Assembly (NCBI GenBank): GCA_022827025.1
Contig: JAJDTT010000254.1
Span: 1 to 40,402, forward strand
DNA length: 40,402 bases
Reading direction: 5' to 3'
Source of the DNA: Acidobacteriota bacterium
GTDB taxonomy: Bacteria > Acidobacteriota > UBA6911 > RPQK01 > JAJDTT01
Of this stretch, positions 1-40,402 are shown piece after piece. The translations under genes were made by a program, and so were the position numbers. How positions within the stretch are numbered: position 1 is the stretch's first letter; each line of letters begins with the position of its first letter. The notes below the pieces were generated by a model. The model worked only from the letters and a program-made list of their open reading frames with translations, did no database searches and was not told the origin of the DNA.

Positions 1-234
1 AACGAGTTCGGAGAGGAGATCGTCAGCGTAGTTCTCCCGGACGGCGTCGTCCCGCAGACCATCGACGACACGCCGCTCCCCTGGCGGGTCAACTTCTACT
101 CCAACGGCCGCAGCTCCGGCGGCGCCATCGGCCTGGTCAACCGGCAGGAAAAGCGCCTCTACGTCACCGCCGACCCCGTCACCGGCCTGGCCAAGGTGTC
201 TCCGGCCCTCGAACTCCAAGGGAGACCCCGATGA
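1..234 (+). CDS. gspH: Type II secretion pseudopilin GspH, C-terminal part (5' end outside window)
   Basis: The frame is open from the first base and ends in TGA at 232-234, giving 77 residues of a C-terminus. The motif SSGGAIGLVNRQEKR followed by LYVTADPVTGLAKVS is the typical end of GspH/FimT-type minor pseudopilins, where the last beta strands carry a Gly-rich turn and a V-DP-TG-V motif. GspH would be a periplasmic, inner-membrane-anchored minor subunit of the type II secretion pseudopilus. Its stop codon overlaps the ATG of the next gene (ATGA at 231-234), so gspH and gspI are translationally coupled. The family assignment also rests on gspI, gspJ and gspK following directly. The prepilin leader is outside the window. 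Confidence 0.85.
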   Translation, partial: NEFGEEIVSVVLPDGVVPQTIDDTPLPWRVNFYSNGRSSGGAIGLVNRQEKRLYVTADPVTGLAKVSPALELQGRPR

Positions 235-302
235 TGAAAGGAGGGGCGATGATGAAAGGAGGGGCGATGACGAAAGGAGGGGCGATGACGAAAGGAGGGG
301 CG
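231..302 (+). repeat. Four tandem 18-bp units, each carrying a Shine-Dalgarno and start codon
   Basis: The units at 231-248, 249-266, 267-284 and 285-302 are near-identical copies of ATGATGAAAGGAGGGGCG (third and fourth read ATGACG). Each has AAAGGAGG followed after a few bases by the ATG of the next unit, so the array is a ladder of ribosome binding sites and starts, all in the gspI frame. It encodes MMKGGA twice and MTKGGA twice, then runs into a hairpin repeat starting GGAGGGGCGATTTCC. Confidence 0.95.
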
Positions 303-1070
303 ATTTCCAATCGCCCACGGGAGGGGCGATTTCTAGTCGCCCCGAGAGGCGATTCCCAATCGCCGACTCCCCTTTCCCCCCTCCGGAGTCCGGCGCCTAA
401 AAGACGCCGCTCCTGTCGGCGCCCGGAAGGACGCCGTTCCCAGTCGGCGCCTGAAAGACGCCGCCCCGGACGCCGTTCCCGGTCGGCGGCTGGAAGACGG
501 CGGTTAGGAAACCGCCGCTCCGGACGCCGCTCCCAGCCGGCGCGTGAAACACGCCGGTCCTGTCGGCGCCCGGAAGGACGCCGATCCCAGTCGGCGCCTA
601 AAAGACGCCGCTCCACCGGCTTCACCCTCCTCGAAGTCCTGGTAGCCGTCTCCATTCTCGGACTCGGCGTCGCCGTCACCATGCAGACCTTCTCGGGAGG
701 CTTGAAGAACGTCCGGCGGATCGATCTGGCCCATCGGGCCATGACCCACGCCGAGAATGTCATGAACCGCCTTCTCAGCGACGAGGACCTGGTGGGCCCC
801 CTCCAGTTGGACGGGAATCTGGACGACGAGTTCGACTACACGGCAACGGTGGACTTCTGGGAGCCCCCCCGCCAGGGCCTCGCTCCGGAGATCGCCCTCC
901 CGCCCGTGAACCTCCTCCTGGTGCAGGTCCGCGTGCGCTACAAGAACGACCCCAACGGCAAGTTCTACACCGCCCGCTGCCTCAAGCTGGTCCCCGACCC
1001 CTACGCCGCCCCGGGAAACCGCGGCCGCCCCCAGAGCGAAATGGAAAGGATCCTCCGCGGTGGAAGATAG
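231..1070 (+). CDS. gspI: Minor pseudopilin GspI with a repeat-encoded giant leader
   Basis: Minor pseudopilin of the type II secretion pseudopilus tip. The prepilin peptidase motif G-FTLLE followed by a hydrophobic helix (VLVAVSILGLGVAV) is present, with Gly130 as the predicted cleavage residue and Glu at mature position 5. The mature part is about 149 residues, a normal GspI size. The leader is about 130 residues instead of the usual 6-25. It starts with four MMKGGA/MTKGGA units and continues as Arg/Pro/Ser-rich sequence encoded entirely by hairpin repeats. Between the last in-frame ATG (285) and Gly130 I see no ATG, GTG or TTG in frame, so translation must cross the repeats. The start at 231 is chosen because it overlaps the gspH stop. 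The alternative is a gene recently disrupted by repeats that happened to stay in frame. Confidence 0.85.
   Translation: MMKGGAMMKGGAMTKGGAMTKGGAISNRPREGRFLVAPRGDSQSPTPLSPLRSPAPKRRRSCRRPEGRRSQSAPERRRPGRRSRSAAGRRRLGNRRSGRRSQPARETRRSCRRPEGRRSQSAPKRRRSTGFTLLEVLVAVSILGLGVAVTMQTFSGGLKNVRRIDLAHRAMTHAENVMNRLLSDEDLVGPLQLDGNLDDEFDYTATVDFWEPPRQGLAPEIALPPVNLLLVQVRVRYKNDPNGKFYTARCLKLVPDPYAAPGNRGRPQSEMERILRGGR
303..616 (+). repeat. Hairpin repeat array inside the gspI leader
   Basis: The block starts with GGCGATTTCCAATCGCC-type palindromes and continues with units such as GGCGCCTAAAAGACGCC, GGCGCCTGAAAGACGCC and GGCGCGTGAAACACGCC, separated by short conserved spacers (for example GCTCC and the reverse of GACTGGGA). 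Most units are in the opposite orientation to those in gspJ. It ends within a few bases of the codons for the prepilin cleavage site. The frame stays open for over 300 bases and is extremely rich in Arg. Confidence 0.9.
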
Positions 1071-2031
1071 AACCGGCATATTTCCCACAAGGAGCGGCGT
1101 CCGGAGCGGCGTGTTTCACGCGCCGACTGGGAACGGCGTCCTTCCGGGCGCCACCCGGGGCGGCGTCTTTCAGGCGCCGACTGGGAATGGCGTCCTTCCG
1201 GGCGCCACCCGGAGCGGCGTGTCTCACGCGCCGACTGGGAACGGCGTCCGGAGCGGCGTCTTTCAGGCGCCGACTGGGACCGGCGTCCTTCCGGGCGCCA
1301 CCCCGACCAGCGTCTTTCACGCGCCGCCCCCCCCACCCCCCAACGCCGGCTTCACCCTCATGGAGCTCGTCGTCGCCTTCACCATCCTGGGACTGGTGGC
1401 CGGCATCGTCTTCTCCTCCTTCCGCCTGGCCCTCAACAGCTACCAGAAGAGCCAGACCCGCCTGGAGGAGGAGGCGGCCGAGAGAATCCTCGGAGACCAG
1501 GTCAAACGCCAGGTCGCCTCCCTCTACCCCCTGCGCCCGGTGGCGCCCCCGGACCGGACCGGCCTGGGCCCGGTGGAGCCTCCCACCCGCTTTCAGACGC
1601 CCCTCTTCTTCGGCACCCCTGATTCGGTCACCTTCATCACCGTGGCGCCTCTGGTCATGCATGAGACGCCCGGACTCACCGTAGTCCGTTACGGCCTGGC
1701 GGAGGACGAGTACGGAGACCGCTACATGGGTTCCATGGAGAGCCGTTTCGTGGGCCTGGACAGCTTCAACACCATGGTCCGGATTCCGGCCGGAAAGCCG
1801 CTGCCCCTGATCCGGGGCATCGACGCGCTGGAGTTCCAGTACTACGGCTACGACCCGCGCCAGCGGGCGTTCGCCTGGTTCCCGGAATGGCTGGGAGAGG
1901 AAATGCAGTCCGTGCCTCGGGCCATCCGCATCGTTCATAACAGAGGGGAGGTCTTCGCCTCCGTCAACGCCAGCTTCATCGGGAGGCGGGCAAGGTCGAA
2001 CCGGGTATTCGGAACGGCGGCGGATCAATGA
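1060..2031 (+). CDS. gspJ: Minor pseudopilin GspJ with a repeat-encoded long leader
   Basis: Minor pseudopilin of the type II secretion pseudopilus. The cleavage motif G-FTLMELVVAFTILGL has Gly97 as last leader residue and Glu5 of the mature chain, and the mature part is about 226 residues, typical for GspJ. The start is GTG at 1060, which overlaps the gspI stop (1068-1070) and has AAGGA at 1046-1050. The 97-residue leader consists of repeats of an 18-residue unit like SGVFHAPTGNGVLPGATR, encoded by a 54-bp DNA unit. In-frame GTG codons at 1111 and 1219 are possible later starts, but even the latter leaves a 44-residue, repeat-encoded leader. It overlaps gspK by four bases (2028-2031). Confidence 0.88.
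   Translation: MEDRTGIFPTRSGVRSGVFHAPTGNGVLPGATRGGVFQAPTGNGVLPGATRSGVSHAPTGNGVRSGVFQAPTGTGVLPGATPTSVFHAPPPPPPNAGFTLMELVVAFTILGLVAGIVFSSFRLALNSYQKSQTRLEEEAAERILGDQVKRQVASLYPLRPVAPPDRTGLGPVEPPTRFQTPLFFGTPDSVTFITVAPLVMHETPGLTVVRYGLAEDEYGDRYMGSMESRFVGLDSFNTMVRIPAGKPLPLIRGIDALEFQYYGYDPRQRAFAWFPEWLGEEMQSVPRAIRIVHNRGEVFASVNASFIGRRARSNRVFGTAADQ
1091..1325 (+). repeat. 54-bp-period hairpin array inside the gspJ leader
   Basis: Alternating hairpins of the types GGCGTGTTTCACGCGCC or GGCGTCTTTCAGGCGCC and GGCGTCCTTCCGGGCGCC are joined by the spacer GACTGGGAAC. The full unit is 54 bp, a multiple of three, so copy-number changes leave the gspJ frame intact. The last hairpin ends at about 1325, separated from the prepilin cleavage codons only by a C-rich stretch encoding six prolines. 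Confidence 0.92.
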
Positions 2032-3035
2032 ACGGCAATCGATCGAACACCGGCGGCGGCGACCGCGGCGCCGTCCTCGTCCTCGTCCTCTGGGTGATGC
2101 TGGCCCTGGGACTGTTGGCGCTGAGCTTCGGCGCGGCCATCCGCACCGAGATCGACGCCACCCGCAACCTGGTGGACCAGAAGCGGGCGCACTACCTGGC
2201 CCGCGCCGGAATCGACTACGCCGTCTATCGGATCGTCGAATCCCAGATGGCCTTCGCCAAGAGCCGTCAGCGCATGGAGATGGGGCCGGGATCGGTCCCC
2301 GAGATCATGACCGGCGTCGTCACCCTGCGGTTGGGACCCGATGTCGCCGACGTCCAGGTGGTGGACGAGACCGGGAAGATCAACCTGAACACGGCGCCCT
2401 CCCACCTGATCTACAACCTCCTGATCACGGTGGGAATGGATCCGGACGGGGCCGACAGCCTCACCGATTCCATCGAGGACTGGAGGGACCCCGACGAGTT
2501 CCTCCGGCCCAACGGGGCCGAGAGCGGCTACTACCTTTCGCTCCCGCAGCCCTACTACGCCAAGAACGGCCCCTTCGACGTCCCCGAAGAGCTGCTCCTG
2601 GTGCGGGGCGTGACCCCCGAGATCTACTACGGCCGGAAGGGCCTGACGCCCGAAGGCGACCGCGTGGAGTACTTCGGTCTGGGCAAGTACCTGACCGTCT
2701 TCAGCAAGGTGAACCGGATCAACGTCAACTCGGCCCCGGTCCCGGTCCTGGCCGCCATCCCCGGCCTGACCTACGAGACGGCCCTGGTCATCGACGAAAT
2801 GCGCCGCCAGTTCCCCCTGGGCGACGTCAACACCGCATTGACCCGGATCCCGGGCCTGCCCACGGACACGGCCTCCTATCTCTCGACCCTTCGATCCAAC
2901 GTCTACAACCTGATCAGCACCGGCCACGTCTCCGGCTCGGAAGTCGCCGGCCGCATCAACGCCGTCGTCCAGATCGGAGTCGGAATCAAGCAGTATGCTG
3001 TCCTCTACTGGAATGAAGCCAACACCGAACTCTAG
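2028..3035 (+). CDS. gspK: Minor pseudopilin GspK
   Basis: The 335-residue protein begins with a short leader ending at Gly14 (DRG-AVLVLVLWVMLALGLLALSF), then a hydrophobic helix. As usual for GspK, the mature position 5 is not Glu. Downstream, LVDQKRAHYLARAGIDYAVYR and VVDETGKINLNTAP, with two helix-hairpin-helix-like segments (INLNTAP and INVNSAPVPVLAAIPGL), match the large globular GspK domain that caps the pseudopilus with GspI and GspJ. The start ATG overlaps the gspJ stop. This gene has an ordinary leader free of repeats, in contrast to its two upstream neighbours. Confidence 0.93.
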   Translation: MNGNRSNTGGGDRGAVLVLVLWVMLALGLLALSFGAAIRTEIDATRNLVDQKRAHYLARAGIDYAVYRIVESQMAFAKSRQRMEMGPGSVPEIMTGVVTLRLGPDVADVQVVDETGKINLNTAPSHLIYNLLITVGMDPDGADSLTDSIEDWRDPDEFLRPNGAESGYYLSLPQPYYAKNGPFDVPEELLLVRGVTPEIYYGRKGLTPEGDRVEYFGLGKYLTVFSKVNRINVNSAPVPVLAAIPGLTYETALVIDEMRRQFPLGDVNTALTRIPGLPTDTASYLSTLRSNVYNLISTGHVSGSEVAGRINAVVQIGVGIKQYAVLYWNEANTEL

Positions 3036-3439
3036 AACCCGCGATCTCCAATCCCCAAGGAGCGTCGTCGTCCACGCGCCGACCGGGAACGGCGTCCGGA
3101 GCGGCGGTTTCCTAACCGCCGTCTTCCAGCCGCCGACTGGGACCACCGTCCGGAGCGGCGTCGTCCCCGGCGCCGACTGGGAAAGGCGTCCGGAGCGGCG
3201 TCGTCCTCGGCGCCGACTGGGATCGGCGTCCGGAGCGGCGTCGTCCTCGGCGCCGACTGGGATCGGCGTCCTTCCGGGCGCCGATCCTCTCCCCCGTGCA
3301 ACAACCCCCCAAACAGCCACACCTCAAAGTGGCCGCATCCGGAGGGGCGGACAGCAAAGCCCCCCCTCCTGCAAACCAAAAAAAGAAGGCGGGACAGGAA
3401 AGTCCCCCCTCCTGTCCCCCCAAGAGGTAACCATCAACC
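3036..3439 (+). repeat. Repeat-filled gspK-gspL intergenic region
   Basis: 3059-3282 carries hairpins GGCGGTTTCCTAACCGCC and, from about 3158, nearly identical 40-bp units (GGAGC, then GGCGTCGTCCTCGGCGCC, then GACTGGGATC, then GGCGTCC). 3342-3418 carries a second, G/C-run type of hairpin (GGGACAGGAAAGTCCCC and relatives). A convincing promoter was not seen. No gene is supported here. A weak purine stretch (AAGAGG, about 3423-3428) precedes the gspL ATG. Confidence 0.9.
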
Positions 3440-4852
3440 ATGAGATTCAGCCTGGGAACCGCTCTCGGAATCGAAATCCACGGCCCTGACCTGATCCTGG
3501 CCGTCGTCCGAAAAGGCTTCCGCCATTTCGAACTCCAGGACCACGCCGTCATCAAGGACTTCCGGACCCTCCCTCCGGCCCAACTCCGGGACCGGATCAG
3601 CCAGTCCGTCCGGTCCTACGCAACCCTCAAGGACCGGATCGTCCTGGGCATCCCCCGCGACGAGGCCGTCGTCCGCTGGCTGGAACTCCCCCTGGAAGTC
3701 GAGGAGAACCTGGACCAGATGGTCCGGTTCCAGGTGGAGCGCCTGGAGCCCACCGAGGAGAACGGGTCCTACTTCGAACACCAGGTGCTGGAGAAGGACG
3801 AAGCCGCGGGCAAGCTGCTGATCCAGATCACCATGCTGCCGCAGGCCACCCTGGACCGGTACCTGGAGACCCTCCAGCTCGCCGACCTCTATCCGGTGGC
3901 CATCCGCCTGTCCAGCATCGCCTATCACCAGGTCCTGCTGGCTCACGCCGACGGACTGCCCGCGGAGCAACCCTGCCTGGTCCTGGCTCTGAACCCCGGT
4001 TCCATCGAAATGGTCCTGATCTCCGGATCGCGCAAGTATTTCTCCCAGAAGGTCGGGTTGCGGGAGGACGAACCGCCGACGCTGCCGTCGATCCTGCACC
4101 ACGTGGACGCGTTCGTCTCCCAGGTCGGTCCGGTGGACGGCGAGCTTCGCAAGATCTACCTGAGCGGCGCGCTGGCCCGTTCCCTCCTGGCCGAGTTCCG
4201 GTCCCGCTTCGAAGATTGCGAACTGCTCCGCACCCACCTTCGGCTGGCCCCTCAGGACCTCCGGGCGGCGGCGGTGGAGCCCTTCCTGCCGGCCGCCGGG
4301 TTGGCCATTTCAGGCCTGAACCGGTCGGGACCGGCCCGTTACAACCTGATTCCGGAGGAGAAGCGGCTGGTGCTGGAACGGTCCAGCATGGCGCCGACGG
4401 CGCTGCTGGCGGGGCTCCTGGCCGTGATGGCCGTGGCCCTGCTGGGCAGGGACTATTTCCAGCAGTCCGACCTGACCCGCCAGATCCAGGTGGAGCTCAA
4501 CGCCCTCCAGCCCAGGGTCCAGGAGGTCATGGACCTGCGGGAAAGGGCCACCCGGGCCGAAGCCCGGCTGGCCGAGCTGCAGGAGTTGATGCAGGGCCGG
4601 CAGAAGGTCCTGGGCATCCTGCAGGAGATGACGGAGAAGACCCCGGACGACGCGTTCCTGGACCAGCTTTCGATTCGGGGGGAACAGGTCACCATGGTGG
4701 GCTACGCGTCGTCGGCGTCGGCGCTGCTGTCCAACCTCACCACCTCCGAGTCGCTCGACACCGTCGAGCCGCGGAACATCGCGCCCGCCCGGGGGATGGG
4801 GGATCGGGAGAAGTTCACCTTCGACGCCACGTCCAAGGAGTCTGCGCGGTAG
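3440..4852 (+). CDS. gspL: Type II secretion GspL-like protein (PilM-like plus PilN-like)
   Basis: The 470-residue protein has an N-terminal actin-like fold domain of the PilM/GspL type (residues about 1-300; GTALGIEIHGPDLILAVVRKG and GIPRDEAVVRWLELP are typical of that fold). One membrane helix follows (about 317-337, TALLAGLLAVMAVALLGRDYF), then a coiled-coil stretch (about 345-390) and a small periplasmic ferredoxin-like end. This is GspL architecture: it would link the cytoplasmic GspE ATPase to GspM. The gene lies between gspK and gspM as in standard operons. The start at 3440 has only a weak ribosome site, but the N-terminal beta strands support it. Confidence 0.85.
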   Translation: MRFSLGTALGIEIHGPDLILAVVRKGFRHFELQDHAVIKDFRTLPPAQLRDRISQSVRSYATLKDRIVLGIPRDEAVVRWLELPLEVEENLDQMVRFQVERLEPTEENGSYFEHQVLEKDEAAGKLLIQITMLPQATLDRYLETLQLADLYPVAIRLSSIAYHQVLLAHADGLPAEQPCLVLALNPGSIEMVLISGSRKYFSQKVGLREDEPPTLPSILHHVDAFVSQVGPVDGELRKIYLSGALARSLLAEFRSRFEDCELLRTHLRLAPQDLRAAAVEPFLPAAGLAISGLNRSGPARYNLIPEEKRLVLERSSMAPTALLAGLLAVMAVALLGRDYFQQSDLTRQIQVELNALQPRVQEVMDLRERATRAEARLAELQELMQGRQKVLGILQEMTEKTPDDAFLDQLSIRGEQVTMVGYASSASALLSNLTTSESLDTVEPRNIAPARGMGDREKFTFDATSKESAR

Positions 4853-4859
4853 AAATGCC

Positions 4860-4909
4860 GGAGCGGCGTCTTTTAGGCGCCGACTGGGAACGGCGTCCTT
4901 CCGGGCGCC
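4860..4909 (+). repeat. Pair of REP-type hairpins after gspL
   Basis: GGCGTCTTTTAGGCGCC, spacer GACTGGGAAC and GGCGTCCTTCCGGGCGCC follow the gspL stop within 10 bases. It is one copy of the unit found in the gspJ leader, here outside coding sequence, and abuts the MITE-like element that starts at about 4910. Confidence 0.9.
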
Positions 4910-5050
4910 GAATCGTAGCGGGAAAGTGGAGAATCGAGGCCGGATTTTCACGATTTGGAGGTGCATGGTGGTTCTATTCGCCGAGAAATCGCACGAATAT
5001 GGACCGATTCTACGCTTTCGCAGTAGATTGATTTCTGCCGCGCAGGCTCC
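4910..5050 (-). mobile_element. MITE-like element, copy 1 (one end truncated)
   Basis: About 140 bp match the reverse complement of 9534-9674 with only scattered differences (for example GGAGGTGCAT, TTCTATTCGCCG and ATATGGACCGATTC). The end near 5026-5050 carries the terminal inverted repeat seen at both ends of copy 2. The other end is missing and replaced by a REP hairpin. No coding capacity is apparent. The element ends 15 bp before the gspM start, so it forms most of the gspM 5' region. Confidence 0.85.
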
Positions 5051-5065
5051 CGGTGAAAGGGAATC

Positions 5066-5656
5066 ATGAGGAAGCTGACACTCAGAGAGCGGCGCATCCT
5101 GCAGGGAGGAGGACTGACGGCAGCCGTCGTGCTGGTCTACTTCTTCGCGGTGGAGCCCTTCCATGAAGCCCGGGCCTCCATCCCGGTCCAACTGGAGACC
5201 AAGGCCAGGCTGCTGCAGCGTTCGAAGCAGCTCCTCTCGCAGCGGGACTACTACCGGTCCCGGAGCGAGGAGCTCGAGGGGCTGATCCAGCAGTACGAGA
5301 ACCGCTTCATCGAGGCCGAGAATTCCAGCGACGCCACCACCAGGATGGAGCTGGCGGTGCGGGACCTGGCGTCCCGGCTGGGAATCACCATCGCCCGGAG
5401 CAGCCGGGTGCAGGAGCGGGTCCTGGACGACCGGTACGCCAAGATCACGCTGAGAGTGAATCTCCGGGCCGACCTGCGGCAGGTGTTGGAGTTCGTCCAC
5501 GCCCTTTCGGCCTACCCCAAGTTCCTCAAGGTCGAGAACCTGGAGCTCCGGGTCGGACGGGTCAAGGGCCAGCGCCGCCTCAACCCCAGCCTGCACGTTT
5601 CGGGTCTGATTCAACTTTCTCCCGAGCCGGGCATCTCTACCAGGAGCGGAACATGA
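5066..5656 (+). CDS. gspM: Type II secretion GspM-like (PilO-like) inner-membrane protein
   Basis: The 196-residue protein has a short basic N-terminus (MRKLTLRERR), one membrane helix (about residues 14-31), a long coiled coil (about 40-95) and a compact alpha/beta end with the pattern RDLASRLGITIARSS then YAKITLRVNLRADLRQVLEFVHALSAYPKFLKVENLEL. This is typical of GspM subtype b/PilO proteins that pair with GspL in the inner-membrane platform. The purine-rich sequence GAAAGGG at about 5055 precedes the ATG. It overlaps gspC by the four bases ATGA (5653-5656). The symbol is by synteny and fold; sequence conservation in this family is low. Confidence 0.8.
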   Translation: MRKLTLRERRILQGGGLTAAVVLVYFFAVEPFHEARASIPVQLETKARLLQRSKQLLSQRDYYRSRSEELEGLIQQYENRFIEAENSSDATTRMELAVRDLASRLGITIARSSRVQERVLDDRYAKITLRVNLRADLRQVLEFVHALSAYPKFLKVENLELRVGRVKGQRRLNPSLHVSGLIQLSPEPGISTRSGT

Positions 5657-6447
5657 GGCAAGGAATCCTTTTGCTCAACCTGTTGCTGGTGGCGGGCGTC
5701 GGCCTGTTGGGCCAGCGCCTGATCTCGGACTGGCGCCATTTCCGGGAGTCCACGCGCCAGGACGTCTACCAGCGGATCAACCGGGGTCCCGCGCCGCGCG
5801 AGGACGCCTCCTTCAGGCAGGAGCCGACGCGGCCCTTCAACGACTACCTGGAGATCCACGAGAGAAACCTGTTCAAGCCGGAACGCCGGCCGGACCCGGT
5901 GGGTACCGGAACCCCCGCGCCCCCCCGGAAGCCCCCGCCGCTGCCCATCAAGCCGACTCTGCACGGGGTGTCCACCATCCGGGGCGAGCAGAGGGCATTC
6001 CTGACGGTCTTCGCGGGGAAGAAGAACCAGGGAGAGTCCCGGACGGTGATGCTGGGAGACCCGGTGCAGGGGTACCGGGTGGGTGAGATTACGCCGACCA
6101 CGGTCACCCTGGTATGGAACCATCACACCGAGCTGATCGACATCATGGACTCCAGGAAGGGCAAGCAGCCCAAGAAGTCGGCGGCCCGGAAGGCCGGAGG
6201 CGGCGCGGTCAACATCGTGACCGTCGGTTCCACGCGGGCCGCCGTGGAGACGGTGGCCGCAGCGGTCCCGCCCGCCGAAGAGGCGGCCCGCGCGGCCGTG
6301 AGTCCCACCGCCGCGCAACAACGGGTCCGGTCCGGTGGAGCCGCCGCCCGGGGCCGCACCACCCTCACCGGCCGCCAGGGCGCCGCCCGCGGCCGCACCG
6401 GAGCCGCGAGGCGCCCCGTCTATGGCACCGCCGCGACCCCGAGATGA
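5653..6447 (+). CDS. gspC: GspC-like inner-membrane component with a basic low-complexity tail
   Basis: The 264-residue protein has an N-terminal membrane helix (residues 4-22), a conserved GspC/PilP-like segment (FNDYLEIHERNLFKPERRP, about 62-80), and a small beta domain (about 103-164, LHGVSTIRGEQRAFLTVF through TTVTLVWNHHTELIDI) that corresponds to the homology region contacting the secretin N0 domain. There is no PDZ domain. Instead residues from about 168 to the end are Ala/Arg/Gly-rich and strongly basic, apparently disordered. The gene overlaps gspM and precedes gspD, as expected for the GspC-GspD pair. It could equally be named a PilP-like pilotage protein; the role is the same. Confidence 0.75.
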   Translation: MRQGILLLNLLLVAGVGLLGQRLISDWRHFRESTRQDVYQRINRGPAPREDASFRQEPTRPFNDYLEIHERNLFKPERRPDPVGTGTPAPPRKPPPLPIKPTLHGVSTIRGEQRAFLTVFAGKKNQGESRTVMLGDPVQGYRVGEITPTTVTLVWNHHTELIDIMDSRKGKQPKKSAARKAGGGAVNIVTVGSTRAAVETVAAAVPPAEEAARAAVSPTAAQQRVRSGGAAARGRTTLTGRQGAARGRTGAARRPVYGTAATPR

Positions 6448-6477
6448 GGAGCCGCGACTCCCAATCGCCAACGGAGC

Positions 6478-6629
6478 GGCGATTTCCAATCGCCGTCTTG
6501 GAGCGGCGATTTCTAATCGCCGGCCTGGAACGGCGATTTCTAGTCGCCAGTCAGGAACGGCGATTTCCAGTCGCCGTCTTGGAGCGGCGATTTCTAGTCG
6601 CCAATCAGGGACGGCGATTTCCAATCGCC
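6478..6629 (+). repeat. Six-hairpin array with exact 27-bp period between gspC and gspD
   Basis: Six 17-bp palindromes of the type GGCGATTTCCAATCGCC or GGCGATTTCTAGTCGCC start at 6478, 6505, 6532, 6559, 6586 and 6613. They are separated by 10-bp spacers that are similar but not identical (GTCTTGGAGC twice, GGCCTGGAAC, AGTCAGGAAC, AATCAGGGAC). A degenerate seventh unit precedes them. Together with flanks this accounts for most of the 292-bp gap between gspC and gspD. In RNA each unit would fold into a 7-bp stem with a 3-base loop. Confidence 0.97.
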
Positions 6630-6739
6630 GTCCCTGGCCACAACACCGAAACCGGCAAACGGCCTCCGCTCTTCCGGTTTGGAATATTTGATGTGAAACG
6701 TGTCCAACACATGATGACGATTCCCAAGAGGTTCAAATA

Positions 6740-9535
6740 ATGCGTGCGTTGATCGCAGTAATTGTCATTCTTTTCGGCGGGGGCGAACTCTTCGCCGCCG
6801 CGCAGCGAGTCGGCTTCGCCCAAAGTTCCGGGACCACCCGGCAGCCGGGCCAGGAGCCGGTGATCGTCGACGACGGCTCCCGGAGCGCTCCCCCGGTGTT
6901 CGGCACCGCCGGCTCCGACTCGCAGGACCAGCTCCGGAAGCGGCGGCAGGCGCTGCAGGAGATGTATCGAAAAAAGGCTCAGGGAGACCGGGCCGCCTCC
7001 GGGACGACCCCGGCGGCAGGGTCCTCCGGAGACAAGCCCCGGACCGCGAACGGCGGCTCGAAGAGTTCCGGAAAGGGAAACGGCGGAGTCAAGCTGGCCT
7101 TCACCGACATGCCCGTCGACCGGGTGGTGAACGCCGTCATGACCGAGCTGGGTTATTCCTACGTCATCGATCCCGCCGTCTCCGGAACGGTGAGCCTGTT
7201 CACCATGGACGACATCCCCAAGAAGACCCTCTTCCGGGTCCTGGAGCAGGTGCTCAAGCTGGCGGGACAGGCCATCGTCAAGCAGGAGGGGATCTACGTG
7301 GTCCTGCCCATCGGCAAGAGTCCCCGCGTGCCGCACAAGATTCTGGCCCGGCCCTCCGGCGCGGGCCGTCCCGTCCCCGCTCCGGTCCAGGAGAAGCCGG
7401 ACGCCCGGGAGGAGGAGCCCGGCGCCTCGTCTCCGGGGCAGGAATCCTCCGAATCCGATCCCTCGGAAGGCGCCGCGACGGCGGTGTCTCCGGGGGGAAC
7501 CGCTCCCGCGCCGGGAGTGGCTCTCCCCGGAGAGACGAGAGTCGCCGCCGCGCCTGCTCAAGAGGGAGAAGCTCCCTCGCCGGAGCAGGCGGCGGCATCC
7601 CAGGCCACTCCCGGCCCCACGGTCCTGACGCCGGCGGAGTCGGAGGAGGCCCTCCGGCTGGAGGACGAAGAGGGCATCATCACTTACGTCATCCCCCTCC
7701 ACTACCTGCCCTCCGAAGACATGATCGAGATCGTGAAGCCCTTCGTCTCCGAGGGGGCCACCGTGGTCAACCTGGTCTCGGTCAACATCCTCCTGATCAC
7801 CGACTACCGCCGGAACATCCAGCAGGCCCTGAACCTGATCCGGATGCTGGACACCGAGTATTTCTCCATCAACACCGTCGATCTGATCACCATCCGGCAC
7901 AACCACGCCGTGGACGTGGCCTCCGACCTGAGCGCGGTCTTCTCTCCGAGTGAGAAGGGAGGCGGTGTGCGCATCGTCGCCATCGAGCGGCTCAACAGCA
8001 TCCTGGTGGTCACGCACGCGCCGGCGGTCCTGCAGGAGGTCAAGACCTGGGTCGCCAAGCTGGACACGCCTTCCACCAACACCAATCTCAAGACCTACGT
8101 CTACGAGGTGGAGAACAACACCGCCGCCTACATCGCGGACGTCCTGGGCCAGCTCTACTACCAGGGCATGGGCCTGCCCATGGGCGGGACCGATCCTGCG
8201 GACCCGGATTCGGGCGATCAGACCCGGCGAACGCCGACCCAGGACCCCGGCTTCCTCCGCCAGCAGCGGGGCTTCGGCGGCTATGGTGGTGGTTACGGGG
8301 GCTACGGAGGCGGCTACGGCGGGTACGGAGGCGGTGGCTACGGGGGTTATGGCGGCGGCTATGGCGGATACGGCGGTGGTGGTTACGGGGGCTACGGCGG
8401 CGGCTATGGCGGGTACGGCGGTGGTGGCTACGGGGGCTACGGGGGCGGCTACGGCGGGTACGGCGGTGGTGGCTATGGCGGTTACGGTGGCGGGTACGGC
8501 GGCGGAAGGGGCATGGGGCCCTCCCTGTTCGGGCGTTCCCTCAGCCGTCCGTCAGGCATCCGGGTGGTGAGCGCGGGAGACATCCGCATCGTCGTCAACG
8601 ATTTCAGCAACTCCCTGATCATCCAGTCCACGGAGGCGGACTACCGTTTTCTGCTGGAGACCATCCGCCAACTGGACAAGCTGCCGCGCCAGGTCTTCAT
8701 GGAGGCCAGGATCTACTCGGTGGAGCTGCGGGACGACCTCAGCTTCGGAGTGGCGGCCTTCCTCCGGGGGCGGCAGGCCGACGCCACGGGACCGCCCACC
8801 ACCGGCAGCATCTCCGGAACGTCCGATGGGGGCGGCGGAGGGGGCGCCCTGTCCGTGGTGACCAAGGCCTTCATCGGGGCGCAACGGGAACTGGAGGCCG
8901 CCATCACCGCGCTCCGGTCCCGGACCAAGGTGGAGATCCTGGAGGCTCCCACGCTGCTGGCGGTGGACGGCATGCAGGCCCGGATCAACGTGGGCGCCGA
9001 GGTCCCGGTCACGACCGCCTCCTATGGAGACCCCATCACTTCGGGAGTCGCCAGCGCCTTCGCCAACAGCATCAACTATCGTCCCACCGGGACCTCCGTC
9101 CTGATCATGCCCCGCACCAGCGCCAGCGGCATCGTGACCATGGACCTGGCCATCGAGGTCAGCCAGGCCGCGGGCTCGTCCCTCACCCCCACCATCAGCC
9201 AGAACTACGTGGAGACCTCCCTCATCGTCCGGGACGGCGAGACGGTGGCCATCGCGGGCATCATCAGCGACATCAACGACCGCACCCGCAACCGGATCCC
9301 GGTGCTGGGGGACATCCCCGTGGTGGGGGCCCTCTTCGGACGGACCACCAAGAGCAAGCGCCGCTCCGAGCTGGTCGTCTTCATCACCCCCCACGTCATC
9401 CACGGCCTGCCCACCACCGTCGAGCTCACCCTGGACTTCAAGCGCGCATTGCGCAATGCCTACCACACCATCAACCGCAAGGAACAGGAACACCGCGACC
9501 TGATCCAAAGACGCAAGAACGAAGAAGGGCGTTAG
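6740..9535 (+). CDS. gspD: Type II secretion outer-membrane secretin GspD
   Basis: The 931-residue secretin has a signal peptide (residues about 1-20). The N0 domain is at about 117-190 (KLAFTDMPVDRVVNAVMTELGYSYVIDP). A Pro/Glu/Ala linker of about 110 residues follows, then N1 (about 312-375), N2 (about 376-440), N3 from about 445, and the secretin barrel (about 655-895, with VEILEAPTLLAVDGMQARINVGAEVP, ETSLIVRDGETVAIAGI and RIPVLGDIPVVGALFG). It forms the outer-membrane channel through which folded substrates leave the periplasm. N3 is interrupted by a Gly/Tyr-rich tract at about 512-591. AGAGG at about 6726 lies upstream of the ATG. It is longer than the usual 650-750 residues because of the linker and the tract. 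Confidence 0.95.
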   Translation: MRALIAVIVILFGGGELFAAAQRVGFAQSSGTTRQPGQEPVIVDDGSRSAPPVFGTAGSDSQDQLRKRRQALQEMYRKKAQGDRAASGTTPAAGSSGDKPRTANGGSKSSGKGNGGVKLAFTDMPVDRVVNAVMTELGYSYVIDPAVSGTVSLFTMDDIPKKTLFRVLEQVLKLAGQAIVKQEGIYVVLPIGKSPRVPHKILARPSGAGRPVPAPVQEKPDAREEEPGASSPGQESSESDPSEGAATAVSPGGTAPAPGVALPGETRVAAAPAQEGEAPSPEQAAASQATPGPTVLTPAESEEALRLEDEEGIITYVIPLHYLPSEDMIEIVKPFVSEGATVVNLVSVNILLITDYRRNIQQALNLIRMLDTEYFSINTVDLITIRHNHAVDVASDLSAVFSPSEKGGGVRIVAIERLNSILVVTHAPAVLQEVKTWVAKLDTPSTNTNLKTYVYEVENNTAAYIADVLGQLYYQGMGLPMGGTDPADPDSGDQTRRTPTQDPGFLRQQRGFGGYGGGYGGYGGGYGGYGGGGYGGYGGGYGGYGGGGYGGYGGGYGGYGGGGYGGYGGGYGGYGGGGYGGYGGGYGGGRGMGPSLFGRSLSRPSGIRVVSAGDIRIVVNDFSNSLIIQSTEADYRFLLETIRQLDKLPRQVFMEARIYSVELRDDLSFGVAAFLRGRQADATGPPTTGSISGTSDGGGGGGALSVVTKAFIGAQRELEAAITALRSRTKVEILEAPTLLAVDGMQARINVGAEVPVTTASYGDPITSGVASAFANSINYRPTGTSVLIMPRTSASGIVTMDLAIEVSQAAGSSLTPTISQNYVETSLIVRDGETVAIAGIISDINDRTRNRIPVLGDIPVVGALFGRTTKSKRRSELVVFITPHVIHGLPTTVELTLDFKRALRNAYHTINRKEQEHRDLIQRRKNEEGR
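8271..8510 (+). repeat. 45-bp tandem coding repeat: Gly/Tyr-rich insert in GspD
   Basis: A run of about 80 residues of GYGG/GGGY units, with a 15-residue (45-bp) higher-order period repeated about four times, sits inside the N3 domain of GspD. The codons differ between units mostly at third positions (GGC, GGG, GGT; TAC, TAT), which indicates that the amino-acid sequence is kept. Gly-rich loops occur in N3 of some secretins; this one is unusually long and regular. Confidence 0.95.
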
Positions 9536-9695
9536 GAGCCTGAGTGGCAGGAATTGATCTACTGCGAAAGCGGTGAATCGGTCCATATTTCCTCGATTTC
9601 CCGGCGAATAGAACGACTATGCACCTCCAAATCAAGAAAATCCGGCCTCGATTCCCCACTTTCTCGCTACGATCATTTCTACCGCGCAGACTCCT
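9534..9695 (+). mobile_element. MITE-like element, copy 2, with imperfect terminal inverted repeats
   Basis: The 162-bp element has ends that are inverted repeats of about 25 bp: AGGAGCCTGAGTGGCAGGAA at 9534 and, reading inward from 9695, AGGAGTCTGCGCGGTAGAAA. It matches the reverse complement of 4910-5050. It overlaps the gspD stop codon and carries no credible gene. Non-autonomous, probably mobilised in trans; no transposase with matching ends is visible in the window. Confidence 0.8.
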
Positions 9696-9846
9696 GAGAA
9701 AAACATGGGCGCCCCTCGGAGGGGGGACATTCTTGTCCCCCTCTTCGCCGCCGGATCGGAACCGCCGACTGGAAAGCCTCCGTTCCCAGGCCGCCTTTTT
9801 CTCGCAGGATTTCGCCGGACCGGGGCCGGTGGGGGAGCTCCTGAAA
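9696..9846 (-). repeat. Variant copy of the 200-bp GGAGCTCC repeat before the DUF6807 gene
   Basis: In reverse complement this begins GGAGCTCCCCCACCGGCCCC and ends with GGGGGACAAGAATGTCCCCC and CATGTTTTTCTCAG, like the copies at 12198-12397 and 39892-40090. Its middle part is shorter and different (it contains a CCAGTCGGCGGTT segment of the REP family). It ends four bases before the next gene's ATG and so supplies that gene's ribosome-binding region. Together with the element before it, it fills the 311-bp gap after gspD. Confidence 0.85.
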
Positions 9847-10815
9847 ATGAAGCGCATCGTGTCTGCCGCGTTGCTTCTGATCGGACTCGTTCCGTCCGCC
9901 GCCTCAGCCGGATCTCCCCACCCGATCCGCCTCGTCAAGACCGACGCGGCGCATGTGGACATCTACGCCGGCGAGACCCTCTTCGCCTCCTACCACTACG
10001 GCATCGGCCTGCACAAACCGATCCTCCATCCGTTGCTCAGCCCCGGGGGACACCGGATCACCCGGGGATTCCCCATGGAGTTCGGCATCCCCGGCGAGCA
10101 GACCGACCACTGGCAACACGAGGGCGTCTTCCTCACCTACCGCAACGTCAACGGCGTGGACTTCTGGTCCAAGTTTCCTCCCACGCGAGACCGGCCCGGC
10201 AGCGGCCGGATCCGCCACACCGGCTTCACCAGAATGGAAGGCGGGCCGCAAGGGATCTTGGGCACGACATCCAACTGGATCGCCCCCACCGGTCAGATCC
10301 TGCTCCGGCAGAATTCTCAAATGACCATCCGGGCCGGACCCGCCTGGCGAACCCTGGATTTGCAGATCACCCTGACCGCCCAAGAGCAGCCCGTCACCTT
10401 CGGCGACATCGAGGAGGGTCTGCTGGCCATCCGCGTCGCCTCCGATCTGCGCGAGGACCGCACCGGCCGCTACCTCAACGCCGAAGGCCTGGAACTCGCG
10501 GAAAACGTCTGGGGTAAACGCTCTCCCTGGGTCGCCCTGCGCGGAACAATCCAGGACGAGGACCTCACCCTGGCCATCCTGAACCATCCCCGCAGCACCC
10601 GGTATCCCACCTACTGGCACGCCCGCGCCTACGGCCTCTTCGCCGCCAACCCCTTCGGCCGGGCCGATTTCGAAAAGGGCGCCCCGCCCCTCAACTTCTC
10701 CCTGAACCCCGGCGAATCCGCCACCTTCCTCTACCGCATCCTCATCCACTCCGGCCACCTCACCCGCTCCCAGCTAAAAAACAACTTCACCAACTACCGC
10801 CTGGAATCAAAGTAA
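9847..10815 (+). CDS. Secreted DUF6807 (PmoA-like) family protein
   Basis: The 322-residue protein starts at an ATG followed by a clear signal peptide (MKRIVSAALLLIGLVPSAASA). The rest (YHYGIGLHKPILHPLLSPGGHRITRGFPME, then EQTDHWQHEGVFLTYRNVNGVDFW, ending NPGESATFLYRILIHSGH) matches the DUF6807 family, also called PmoA in some databases; it is not a membrane methane monooxygenase subunit. Biochemical function is unknown; such proteins are predicted beta-sandwich proteins found with carbohydrate enzymes. An in-frame extension back to 9619 is rejected because it lies in repeat DNA and would bury the signal peptide. Export makes it a possible client of the adjacent secretion system (inference). 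Confidence 0.82.
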   Translation: MKRIVSAALLLIGLVPSAASAGSPHPIRLVKTDAAHVDIYAGETLFASYHYGIGLHKPILHPLLSPGGHRITRGFPMEFGIPGEQTDHWQHEGVFLTYRNVNGVDFWSKFPPTRDRPGSGRIRHTGFTRMEGGPQGILGTTSNWIAPTGQILLRQNSQMTIRAGPAWRTLDLQITLTAQEQPVTFGDIEEGLLAIRVASDLREDRTGRYLNAEGLELAENVWGKRSPWVALRGTIQDEDLTLAILNHPRSTRYPTYWHARAYGLFAANPFGRADFEKGAPPLNFSLNPGESATFLYRILIHSGHLTRSQLKNNFTNYRLESK

Positions 10816-11230
10816 CAACCCCGCATCCCCCCCCACCAAGCAACGCCGCATTTCACACGCCAAGGAGCGACGTCGTCCGGAGCGGCGTCGTCCCCGGCGC
10901 CGTCTTACGACCTCGCATTCAAAAAAAACCGGGCGGCCGCATTGTCTCTCCCTCCCTCAGCTCGTCCCCCCCGCACGGCGCGAAAGAGAGCGAACGGACC
11001 GACCTTCCCTCCAAAGCCAAAAGCCAGGACGTCGAGCCGCCGAGCTTCGAGTACACCCAACGCTCGAAAGAGGGCGCCAAGAATGACGCCCCTCCAAACG
11101 AGCAGCGCCCCTGAGGTCGCCGATTGGGAAAAGCCTCTCAAGCGGTGTGTTTCACGCGCCGACTGGGATCGTCGTCCGGAGCGGCGTCGTCCCCGGCGCC
11201 GACTGGGATCGGCGTCCTTCCGGGCGCCGA
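10816..11230 (+). repeat. Left inverted arm and REP hairpins, DUF6807-RAYT interval
   Basis: 10864-10914 holds REP hairpins (GGCGTCGTCCCCGGCGCC). 10915-11110 is the arm element, including the A-run near 10921 and CGCTCGAAAGAGGGCGCC. 11150-11230 is two further REP hairpins with GACTGGGAT spacers. No gene is supported in this stretch. Confidence 0.85.
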
Positions 11231-11242
11231 TCCCCGCGCGCC

Positions 11243-11926
11243 TCACCCACCAACCTTCCCACCACCACCCCTCTCGAAAAGGACAAACTCCCCCTCCCGC
11301 AACCCTGCTCTCCCCGGGTTCTCTCGGATGTACTCCAAGCAATTCAAATAGTGTTCCGGATTCCTGATCAGGCGGTCCCAATAGTCTTTCTGCCAGAGTT
11401 TGCCCGAGGTTCCGGTCTTTTTTCTGATCTGATGGCCCGTAAATCCCTTCCAGCAACTCAAGATATTTCCGAGTCGGTGACGGCCAAGAGGCCGAAACAG
11501 CACATGGACATGGTTGGGCATTACGACGAATGAGGACAGTTCGTATCGCTGGCCATCGAAATATCGCAGTGCATCAGCCACGATCCTGGCCAATGCCGGA
11601 TCCTTCAGGATGCAGGATCCGCTCCCCTGATCCAACCAGTCCTCGATCCGTTGAAGAAAACGATCGTGGTAGCGCCTCGCCGTCTGAGAATTCCAAGGTC
11701 GAGGATTGTTTTTCAACCAGAGCGCGCGCTCTTCCCGCCACTGAACCAATTTTGCCTCGGGGAGCGAGTCTCCCAGGCGCCATGTCACAAAGATGAACTT
11801 GTGACCCTGTTGCCAGTGCGGCAGCCGATTTCGGCGAACTTCAACGGCTGCGTACGGGTCGAGATAAGAGTGGTTGCCTGGGAGGAGCGGGTTTGGAGCA
11901 AAGGGGTGCTTGGAATTGTATGGCAT
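11243..11926 (-). CDS. REP-associated tyrosine transposase (RAYT, HUH/Y1 superfamily)
   Basis: The 227-residue protein starts at the ATG encoding MPYNSKHPF. It carries the HUH motif in SSFVVMPNHVHVLFRP (His139 and His141), and GKLWQKDYWDRLIRNPEHY with LNCLEYIRENPGRAGL in the region that holds the catalytic tyrosine of this family; Tyr182 in DYWDR is the likeliest nucleophile. PHWQQGHKFIFVTWRLGDSLP near the N-terminus is typical of RAYTs. Family members are usually single-copy, vertically kept genes that act on REP palindromes. The frame continues upstream through the right repeat arm, but that part is not family-like and is excluded. All core motifs appear intact. No strong ribosome site is seen before the chosen ATG. 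Confidence 0.9.
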   Translation of the reverse strand: MPYNSKHPFAPNPLLPGNHSYLDPYAAVEVRRNRLPHWQQGHKFIFVTWRLGDSLPEAKLVQWREERALWLKNNPRPWNSQTARRYHDRFLQRIEDWLDQGSGSCILKDPALARIVADALRYFDGQRYELSSFVVMPNHVHVLFRPLGRHRLGNILSCWKGFTGHQIRKKTGTSGKLWQKDYWDRLIRNPEHYLNCLEYIRENPGRAGLREGEFVLFERGGGGKVGG

Positions 11927-11980
11927 ACGGTTCCAAACGATTGGTGGGTAGAAATGTGCGAAGGAAATGACGTGGGAGGG

Positions 11981-12197
11981 GGAGCGGCGCCCGGAAGGAC
12001 GCCGGTCCCAGTCGGCGCCGGGGACGCCGCCGCTCCGGACGTCTTTCCCAGTCGGCGCGTGAAACACGCCGAGACGCTTTTCCCAATCGGCGACCTCAGG
12101 GTCGCTGCTCGTTTGGAGGGGCGTCATTCTTGGCGCCCTCTTTCGAGCGTTGGGTGTGCTCGAAGCTCGGCGGCTGGACGTCTTGGGGCTTTTCTTC
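11981..12197 (-). repeat. Right inverted arm, proximal part, upstream of the RAYT gene
   Basis: REP hairpins (GGCGCCCGGAAGGACGCC and GGCGCGTGAAACACGCC) are followed by the element with TCGTTTGGAGGGGCGTCA and TCGAAGCTCGGCGGCTGGAC. It is the inverted counterpart of 11024-11230, near-identical over about 200 bp. The interval 11927-11980 is a short unremarkable leader. Confidence 0.9.
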
Positions 12198-12397
12198 GGA
12201 GCTCCCCCACCGGCCCCGGTCCGGCAAAATCCTGCGTGAAAAGGAGTGGGGGTTTTCCTACCCCCACTCCCTCGGGGGGACTGAAAGTCCCCCCTCCTAT
12301 CCGCCCAACTCCGGCCCCACCGGGGCCCAGCGAAAGCAACCGTAGAGAAGAGGGGGACAAGAATGTCCCCCCTCCGGGTGCCCCATGGTTTTCTCAG
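12198..12397 (+). mobile_element. 200-bp GGAGCTCC repeat nested in the right RAYT arm
   Basis: It begins GGAGCTCCCCCACCGG and ends CATGGTTTTCTCAG, and is nearly identical to 39892-40090. It contains three strong hairpins: GGAGTGGGGGTT/CCTACCCCCACTCC, GGGGGGACTGAAAGTCCCCC and GGGGGACAAGAATGTCCCCC. It splits the arm element: the sequence before (TTTTCTTC) and after (CGAAGGGA) is contiguous in the uninterrupted copy at 34255-34481. This shows insertion of one repeat family into another. Confidence 0.88.
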
Positions 12398-12536
12398 ACG
12401 AAGGGAGATCGGTCCTTCCGTTCGTTTTCGGGCTGGGGGAGGGGTGAAAAAGAACACGGGCGGGGAGAGCCGATGCGGCCGTCCGGTTTTTCTTGAATGC
12501 GAGGTCGTAAGACGGCGCCAAGGATGACGCCGCTCC
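12398..12536 (-). repeat. Right inverted arm, distal part
   Basis: This continues the arm element interrupted at 12198, through CGGTTTTTCTTGAATGCG and GGTCGTAAGACGGCGCC to CGCCGCTCC at 12536. It matches 34341-34481 closely and the reverse complement of about 10879-11010. The acyl-CoA dehydrogenase stop codon is 36 bp further on, and a small palindrome (CATGGATACTCCATG) lies between; part of it recurs near 40187. Confidence 0.88.
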
Positions 12537-12571
12537 TTCACTTGCAACATGGATACTCCATGTCGCCGCTT

Positions 12572-34121: not shown

Positions 34122-34480
34122 GCGTTCCCAGGGGCACCTATGTAGAGGAGGCTTTCAGAGTCTATTCGGCGATTCGCCTGCTCATATTTTGGCGTATTGT
34201 TACATAGGAGTCCGGCGCCGGTAATACGCCGGTCCCAGTCGGCGCCTGGAAAGTCGCTCCTCGTTTGGAGGGGCGTCATCCTTGACGCCCTCTTGCGAGC
34301 GTTGGGTGTTCTCGAAGCTCGGCGGCTGGACGTCTTGGTTCTTTTCTTCGAAGGGAAGTCGGTCCTTTCGCTCGTTTTCGCGCTGGGCGGGAGGACGAAC
34401 ACAGGCGGGGAGTGACGATGCGGCCGCCCGGTTTTTCTTGAATGCGCGGTCGTAAGACGGCGCCAAGGATGACGCCGCTC
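34122..34480. repeat. REP hairpins and a solo, uninterrupted arm element
   Basis: 34122-34205 is a short AT-richer stretch with no recognised signal. 34208-34250 has REP hairpins (GGCGCCGGTAATACGCC and a GGTCCCAGTCGGCGCC tail). 34255-34481 is a complete solo copy of the element that forms the RAYT arms, from TCGTTTGGAGGGGCGTCA to GACGCCGCTCC, without the 200-bp insertion present at 12198. It ends exactly at the stop codon of the next - strand gene. Confidence 0.85.
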
Positions 34481-39891: not shown

Positions 39892-40090
39892 GGAGCTCCC
39901 CCACCGGCCCCGGTCCGGCGAAATCCTGCGAGAAAAGGAGTGGGGGTTTTCCTACCCCCACTCCCACGGGGGGACTGAAAGTCCCCCCTCCTATCCGCCC
40001 AACTCCGACCCCACCGGAGCCCAGCGAAAGCAACCGCAGCGAAGAGGGGGACAAGAATGTCCCCCCTCCGGGTGCCCCATGTTTTCTCAG
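39892..40090 (+). mobile_element. 200-bp GGAGCTCC repeat, complete copy
   Basis: Nearly identical to 12198-12397, with the same three hairpins (GGAGTGGGGGTT/CCTACCCCCACTCC, GGGGGGACTGAAAGTCCCCC, GGGGGACAAGAATGTCCCCC). It ends at TTTTCTCAG and is followed at once by a second GGAGCTCCCCCACCG start, a partial tandem copy. Confidence 0.92.
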
Positions 40091-40402
40091 GAGCTCCCCC
40101 ACCGCCGGGCCTCCGGCATGATCCCGCGAGAAACCGGGCGGGTGGAGCGGCGACTTTCTAGTCGCCGACTGGGACCGGCGTCCGGAGTATCCATGTTGCA
40201 ATGGGAGCGGCGTCATCCGGAGCGGCGTCGTCCTCGGCGCCGTCTTCCGACCTAGCATGCACACAAAACCGGGCGGCCGCATCGTCTCTCCCCCCCACTC
40301 CGCGCGTCCCCCCCGCCCGGCGCGACAGAGAGCGCACGGACCGCCCGTCCCTCCACAGCACACAGCCCGGACGTCGAGCCGCCGCGCTGCGCGTCCCCCC
40401 CA
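40091..40402. repeat. Partial repeat, REP hairpins and a truncated arm element at the window end
   Basis: 40091-40140 begins like the 200-bp repeat but diverges. 40148-40165 is GGCGACTTTCTAGTCGCC, a REP hairpin. 40206-40402 holds REP hairpins and the arm element in reverse orientation, cut off by the window end. No gene is supported. Short frames here are repeat-derived. Confidence 0.85.

Follow-up and report, generated by a model that had tools for sequence, protein, structure and literature searches.

The window, the whole stretch of 40,402 nt that was analysed, probably contains a REPtron, a RAYT locus passed on vertically within a genus of the Acidobacteriota, in which the gene stays in place while GGAG-tagged REP hairpins and a REPIN-like element, E1, move. 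The identity and residues of the RAYT, its fixed locus, the later arms, the element ends, the covariation of the stems, the position of a CT dinucleotide and the co-occurrence of RAYT and hairpins were observed directly and support this reading. The results bear on how RAYTs pick and disperse REPs. The genus forms a natural series, with the RAYT locus kept in three species, differing stems at the same intergenic sites and a young element present in just one of them.

RAYT gene and locus

The window represents contig C22 of a genome of 5.33 Mb in 318 contigs. The RAYT was assigned by domain, alignment and structural model, and the names of the other genes at the locus were assigned by reading translations.

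11243-11926, minus strand: RAYT, a TnpAREP-type Y1 HUH transposase of 227 amino acids (P0001)

P0001 scored 26.2 bits against Pfam Y1_Tnp, above the cut-off of 23, and 72.8 bits (2.6e-20) against NCBIfam REP_Tyr_transpos, missing the equivalog cut-off of 80, which is a database threshold and not a biological defining feature of RAYTs. The best solved relative by sequence was the REP-bound TnpAREP 4er8. The structural model (pLDDT 86) had the Y1 HUH transposase fold with TnpAREP as the nearest structure, and the fold search placed 4er8 first (E 3.9e-5, TM 0.57 by target length). The HUH motif was MPNHVHV. Residues H139, H141, W178, R188, Y199 and N203 of P0001 were invariant among the 32 sequences of alignment A1, as was P204, which completes the class 2 signature Y---NP with Y199 and N203. 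Y199 aligned with Y115 of the E. coli enzyme. In the alignment to 4er8, W178, Q179 and R188 corresponded to E. coli W94, Q95 and R104, residues of the guide-binding region (PMC6006769). The N-terminal region read LPHW..FVTWRLGDSLP, and Pfam gave no match for a C-terminal HTH domain in the 227 residues. The dN/dS between intact RAYT homologues was 0.08-0.34; for P0001 it was 0.16-0.34, so the protein is maintained by selection. The orthologue at the locus was under purifying selection in three species.

P0001 was present as a single copy. The genome also held one homologue with 67% identity on contig C110, which retained the HUH motif and the tyrosine, and one relic on contig C83; the several near-identical mobile copies of an IS200/IS605 element were not found for this RAYT. 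Contigs C265 (L037/L161) and C28 (L036) carried, at their ends, pieces of another RAYT-type gene (MARTARHKSSEAAFYHLTNR...), which belongs to a separate Y1 group.

A RAYT of the P0001 type occurred in all four genomes of the genus. Window positions 1-10800 and the RAYT were collinear with G001 and G003 in the same orientation. An apparent inversion of the RAYT with respect to the adjacent gene in G003 was rejected, as synteny showed an orientation artefact of the locus. The RAYT of G001 was flanked by inverted REP arrays of about 100 bp and that of G003 by other hairpins, both without E1. The locus is old, fixed, vertically inherited and non-mobile, with a single-copy RAYT, and its arms grew later.

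GGAG-tagged hairpins and the arms of the RAYT

Hairpins with an 8-bp stem and a loop of 3-5 nt were counted in a 1.05 Mb sample of the genome and in shuffled sequence. GGAG preceded 199 hairpins (15 in shuffled sequence), GTAG 61 (9) and GTGG 8 (9). Inverted REP hairpins of a kind scattered through the genome flanked the RAYT, and their tag was GGAG instead of GTAG or GTGG. The GGAG stems consisted of CGGCG, GGGCG or GGGGG followed by three variable pairs (ACT, ACA, GTT, ATT, TCT, TCG, TGT and others). Stem covariation was 0.492, compared with 0.128 in shuffled sequence and at most 0.160 in slid controls; because the sequences had been selected as hairpins, a high percentage of pairing follows from the selection, and it is the two-sided changes that carry information. 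A T.G wobble at pair 6 was found in 74 of the 199 hairpins. The opposite strand would have a C-A mismatch there, and the GGAG strand is therefore the better folder.

Of the 199 GGAG hairpins, 103 had a CT precisely one base 3' of the stem (other offsets, 0-13), as did 26 of 72 after hairpin types had been collapsed (p = 3e-15). Cleavage by TnpAREP takes place at a CT on either side of the REP, 5' or 3', and the tag bases A3G4 have been proposed to select this CT (PMC8266576). The GGAG tag retains AG, and the CT at +1 is positioned as a TnpAREP cleavage site would be, making it a putative site of cleavage. The exchange of GTAG for GGAG renders the guide model testable, as AG should still select CT. 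Tags in prior surveys were GTAG, GTGG and CGTC, the REP search rules of one study admitted GTAG and GTGG only (PMC6006769), and GGAG was not found in the published REP surveys searched for it. The GGAG tag with CT at +1 is new and apparently an undescribed REP tag. It was rejected as an exclusive mark of the nearest RAYT clade, since other branches also use GGAG. Residue 185 of alignment A1, which corresponds to H101 of E. coli, was R wherever the flanks carried GGAG (27 of 27 RAYTs) and mostly H where they carried GTAG or GTGG (13 of 17), which makes it a candidate specificity residue. It was rejected as a proven tag determinant because the tree contains about three changes and a sign test is powerless.

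Abundant GTAG-tagged hairpins (GTAG-GGGCACCC-CTTGT-GGGTGCCC and a version with GGGCGACC) were seen in the G000 sample L038-L117. No RAYT was found beside GTAG-tagged hairpins in the window's genome.

The claim that the intact-HUH RAYT lies between inverted arms, whose hairpins are of the same type as those in the secretion operon, was confirmed, and the shared type is GGAG. Three inverted collinear blocks of 74, 131 and 93 nt with 91-92% complementarity surround the gene. The features of the arms were as follows.

10879-10952 and 12463-12536: inverted block pair, 74 nt
11009-11139 and 12071-12201: inverted block pair, 131 nt, 92%
11143-11235 and 11979-12071: inverted block pair, 93 nt, 92%
10879-11095, plus strand: left outer arm, E1, 217 bp, with inverted GGAG hairpins at 10879-10902 (plus) and 11072-11095 (minus)
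11096-11239, plus strand: left inner arm, REP hairpin array, dispersed in the genome joined to E1
11979-12114, minus strand: right inner arm, REP array, inverted copy (93 nt, 92%; 131 nt, 92%)
12115-12536, minus strand: right outer arm, E1-long, 422 bp, with GGAG hairpins at 12115-12138 (plus) and 12513-12536 (minus)
12275-12375, minus strand: GGGGGACT and GGGGGACA GGAG hairpins of subfamily B, nested in the right arm
34267-34481, minus strand: E1 copy, 85%, at the 3' end of a minus-strand gene (34481-36058)
40219-40400, plus strand: E1 copy ended by the contig edge

The left arm comprised about 361 bp and the right arm about 558 bp. The right arm differs by its middle stretch (12202-12462), a repeat in its own right; positions 12198-12391 were 96% identical to 39892-40085. 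The arm repeat ran slightly past the ends first noted, to 10864 and about 12567. As a query against its own genome, the left arm gave 57 matches, dozens of them elsewhere with E below 1e-20, far beyond chance.

Alignment of the copies with their flanks revealed E1 as a discrete dispersed unit of 217 bp (10879-11095). It starts with GGAG-CGGCGTCG-TCCC-CGGCGCCG-TCTT and ends with the inverse of GGAG-GGGCGTCA-TTCT-TGGCGCCC-TCTT, and is thus delimited by two REPs in inverted order, as a REPIN is. Copies including those in L014, L022, L030, L031 and L032 stopped exactly at the E1 ends with unrelated DNA beyond, and no common direct repeat flanking these copies, judged by eye, was visible. Many copies had an additional short left part, GGAGTATCCATGTTGCAAGTGAA. 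E1-long retains the E1 ends, and its middle is replaced by a second repeat with GGGGGAC-type hairpins. The window's genome contained at least 20 full-length E1 copies with 82-99% identity. Among the congeners, G003 had no match, and those in G001 and G002 were only 28-31 nt long; E1 was absent from 27 further genomes searched. The REP array adjoins the gene in both arms and is also found elsewhere joined to E1. Because array and E1 are present in both arms and are dispersed in this joined form, each arm is one copy of E1 plus array, and the two copies face each other in opposite order. The notion that they are long recognition ends of the RAYT did not hold, as E1 is dispersed without the RAYT and is missing at the RAYT locus of G001 and G003.

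Among known systems, the REPtron with TnpAREP of E. coli, S. maltophilia and Marinomonas (PMC8266576) shares with the locus the Y1 HUH enzyme, the W-Q...R...Y motif, the single copy, the vertical maintenance, the inverted tagged hairpin flanks and the CT beside the hairpin. The locus differs in its GGAG tag (GTAG or GTGG there), in the 227 residues of P0001 with their distinct N-terminal region and in flanks extended by a REPIN-like element of 217-422 bp. TnpAY1 subclass 2.7 (PMC6006769) is similar in its NHVH, WQ and YIR.NP motifs, its long flanking REPs and its median length of 213 amino acids; P0001 has YIRENP where the subclass has YI[LR][NQ]NP. The hairpin types that end E1 (CGGCGTC and GGGCGTCA) flank P0001. 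The GGGGGAC subfamily flanks the RAYT on C110, beside which the subfamily B type of 12275-12375 also occurs, and the relic on C83. Classical REPINs are shorter than E1. The REPIN of Bertels and Rainey (2011, PMC3116915) is reportedly a dispersed, non-autonomous unit between two inverted REPs whose cognate RAYT is encoded by the same genome. E1 agrees in its two inverted REPs and in having a candidate cognate RAYT in the genome, and differs in its length of 217 or 422 bp, its unique middle and its GGAG tag.

Spread of the hairpins and rival explanations

REP arrays and inserts were also found in the secretion operon and further along the window.

391-614, minus strand: REP array, putative in-frame leader of gspI (at least 111 amino acids before GFTLLE)
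1103-1326, plus strand: REP array, putative in-frame leader of gspJ (at least 43 amino acids before GFTLME)
4838-5046, plus strand: insert with GGAG...CTCC ends, absent at the same site in G001 and G003
9532-9840, plus strand: insert missing in G001 and G003, carrying a GGGGGACA hairpin (9718-9741)

The gspI and gspJ regions with such leaders span 231-1070 and 1060-2031. The nearest in-frame start was at least 111 codons from GFTLLE in gspI and at least 43 codons from GFTLME in gspJ, and the REP array fills both intervals. In the congeners, possible starts lay 5-28 codons away, and shorter leaders are possible there. The lack of a closer start together with the congener starts suggests that REP expansion turned into coding sequence for in-frame leader peptides of gspI and gspJ, which would be translated. 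In the alignment with G001 and G003, REP arrays were lineage-specific at the same sites and had different stems. The predicted spread of hairpins into gspI and gspJ is supported by these arrays, which are lineage-specific relative to the two congeners, as are the inserts. At 4838-5046, no target duplication was seen in comparison with the clean empty site in G001 and G003. Positions 4838-5046 and 9532-9673 also represent another dispersed element of the GGAG...CTCC kind, whose inverted ends (GGAGTCTGCGCGGTAGAAAT and ATTTCTGCCGCGCAGGCTCC) match imperfectly and which was also seen among k-mers in L038-L117.

Co-occurrence of hairpins and RAYT was assessed with R1, a covariance model of the GGAG hairpin that detects only stems resembling the ones found in this genus. 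Matches numbered at least 157, 155, 181 and 139 in its four genomes and 0-26 in 56 other relatives. A second search of 17 genomes, one of them in common with the first, gave a single high count of at least 108, in a Verrucomicrobium whose RAYT shares 61% identity with P0001 and has GGAG-GGGGGACA hairpins on its flanks. Counts among the 71 genomes outside the genus and that Verrucomicrobium were 0-36. Thus, as the original prediction requires, none of the genomes searched had a comparable load of R1-type hairpins without a P0001-type RAYT. Four of the five genomes with RAYT and hairpins belong to one genus, so the co-occurrence provides two independent points, and because R1 is restricted to genus-like stems, low counts elsewhere do not equal absence of GGAG REPs with other stems. 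In G371, a broken RAYT with one R1 match was rejected as a case of a dead enzyme without REPs, as its GGAG hairpins have stems invisible to R1.

P0001 or its 67% paralogue on C110 is the likely mover of the GGAG REPs, because these are massive in the genus and in the Verrucomicrobium with the 61% RAYT and number 0-36 elsewhere. The prediction that this RAYT spread the hairpins stood in so far as hairpins and RAYT type co-occur; its sole candidacy did not stand, since the C110 homologue with its GGGGGAC flanks shares it. The proposed inventory of other RAYT genes gave this homologue and the relic, both with GGGGGAC flanks, besides the fragments on C265 and C28. P0001 is a good, not an exclusive, candidate for hairpin spread, with binding and cleavage predicted. 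The two RAYTs may plausibly each serve a stem subfamily of their own, and the C110 paralogue could move some or all hairpin families.

In the proposed mechanism, the mobile units would be GGAG-tagged REP hairpins and REPIN-like elements with two inverted hairpins, i.e. E1 with 217 or 422 bp. The hairpin would fold once the GGAG strand is single-stranded. The RAYT, presumably P0001 rather than its paralogue in the case of E1, would recognise GGAG and the 8-bp stem and cut at the CT at +1, which the last two tag bases, AG, would select by the rule suggested for TnpAREP. With a pair of inverted hairpins, the intervening segment could be copied or moved through a single-stranded intermediate to a new site without target duplication. 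The flanks of the RAYT may have gained one E1 each, in inverted order, because new copies would also land beside existing REPs, and long arms would result.

It appears unlikely that the RAYT is incidental for E1, with the element spread by the C110 RAYT or a lost enzyme and accumulating at the locus because REPs attract REPs. Such a course would fit the C110 homologue, 67% identical with catalytic residues retained and GGAG hairpin flanks, and the abundance of GTAG hairpins for which no flanked RAYT was found, so that a REP family may outlive its enzyme. The flanks of C110, however, are of the GGGGGAC subfamily, and it is P0001 that is flanked by the E1-end types; the orthologue at the locus, moreover, is under purifying selection in three species. 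Still less probable is that the outer-arm symmetry arose from homologous recombination or assembly through E1-long. The right neighbour of the RAYT in the window is an acyl-CoA dehydrogenase gene, unlike both congeners, which share a TPR gene on this side. This ancestral neighbour was located at C116:412, and contig C116 starts within a 96% copy of 12284-12538 of the right arm; the regions concerned are C116:1-410 and window 12115-12571. The break in the right flank falls in E1-long on both C22 and C116, and the change is either an E1-long recombination or an assembly join through the repeat; such a join may have altered the outer right arm. The inner right arm is unaffected by the break: the innermost 220 bp of the right arm are contiguous with the unique RAYT gene and contain REPs and part of E1, inverted to the left arm, and the two E1-long copies differ by 4%, both of which argue against an origin of the symmetry in this way.

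Positions 10879-12536 might also be read as one TIRtron-like transposon with terminal inverted repeats of about 350 bp and E1 copies as its deletion derivatives. Long inverted arms do surround the RAYT, and TIRtrons have been described in Acidobacteria (PMC3733652), where a RAYT likewise lies between long inverted repeats and some TIRs are dispersed; the nearest architecture is that of P. putida and P. fluorescens, whose TIRs join a degenerate REP to other hairpins (PMC3733652). TIRtron enzymes (TIRYTs) belong mostly to subclass 2.1 (PMC6006769). This reading is highly improbable, as there is a single full arm-RAYT-arm copy, G001 and G003 have the RAYT at the same locus without these arms, and the dispersed copies are single arms beside other DNA and not two-ended deletion forms. 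Furthermore, TIRs are unrelated to REPs and TIRYTs have a C-terminal HTH, whereas the arms here combine tagged, intact REPs with a dispersed element that is young, and P0001 lacks a Pfam HTH match. The preferred reading is the vertically inherited REPtron with moving REPs and E1.

RAYTs within host genes

In phylum-wide searches, 17 of 72 stop-free RAYT matches in Acidobacteriota and 51 of 136 in Verrucomicrobiota lay in frames of at least 450 amino acids. Pfam host domains around Y1_Tnp were HsdR, Eco57I, MmeI, IspG, leucyl- and valyl-tRNA synthetase, PriA and others. RAYTs were found in frame inside the following genes, many of which encode restriction or methylation enzymes.

Leucyl-tRNA synthetase: L212, L217, L222
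Valyl-tRNA synthetase: L234
PriA: L228
IspG: L155
HsdR: L148/L206, L207, L149/L172, L150
Eco57I-like gene: L121, L171, L174, L225
MmeI: L233
Acetyl-CoA synthetase: L183, L187

The REP hairpins beside the embedded RAYTs were also within the open frame. The open frames of these host genes are shown. It may well be that this RAYT clade inserts REPs and its own gene in frame into host genes, yielding working enzymes with a transposase domain in mid-protein. The fused proteins are probably made and functional, because the host genes are essential and single-copy. The habit is new and apparently undescribed: literature searches for gene-embedded RAYTs found no description, and unexpectedly long proteins were discarded as gene fusions or annotation errors in an earlier survey (PMC6006769). 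Should these in-frame cases in essential genes be borne out, transposases would be parts of housekeeping enzymes.

Three Verrucomicrobiota genomes had a full-length, single-copy leucyl-tRNA synthetase with a RAYT. These enzymes (L212, L217 and L222) aligned to an uninterrupted homologue save for about 200 amino acids of RAYT plus REP peptides in the editing domain, and no other strong leucyl editing domain was found in each of the three assemblies. In an Akkermansiaceae assembly, the sole GcpE was split by a RAYT within one frame of 853 amino acids, and this carrier was the only strong IspG copy.
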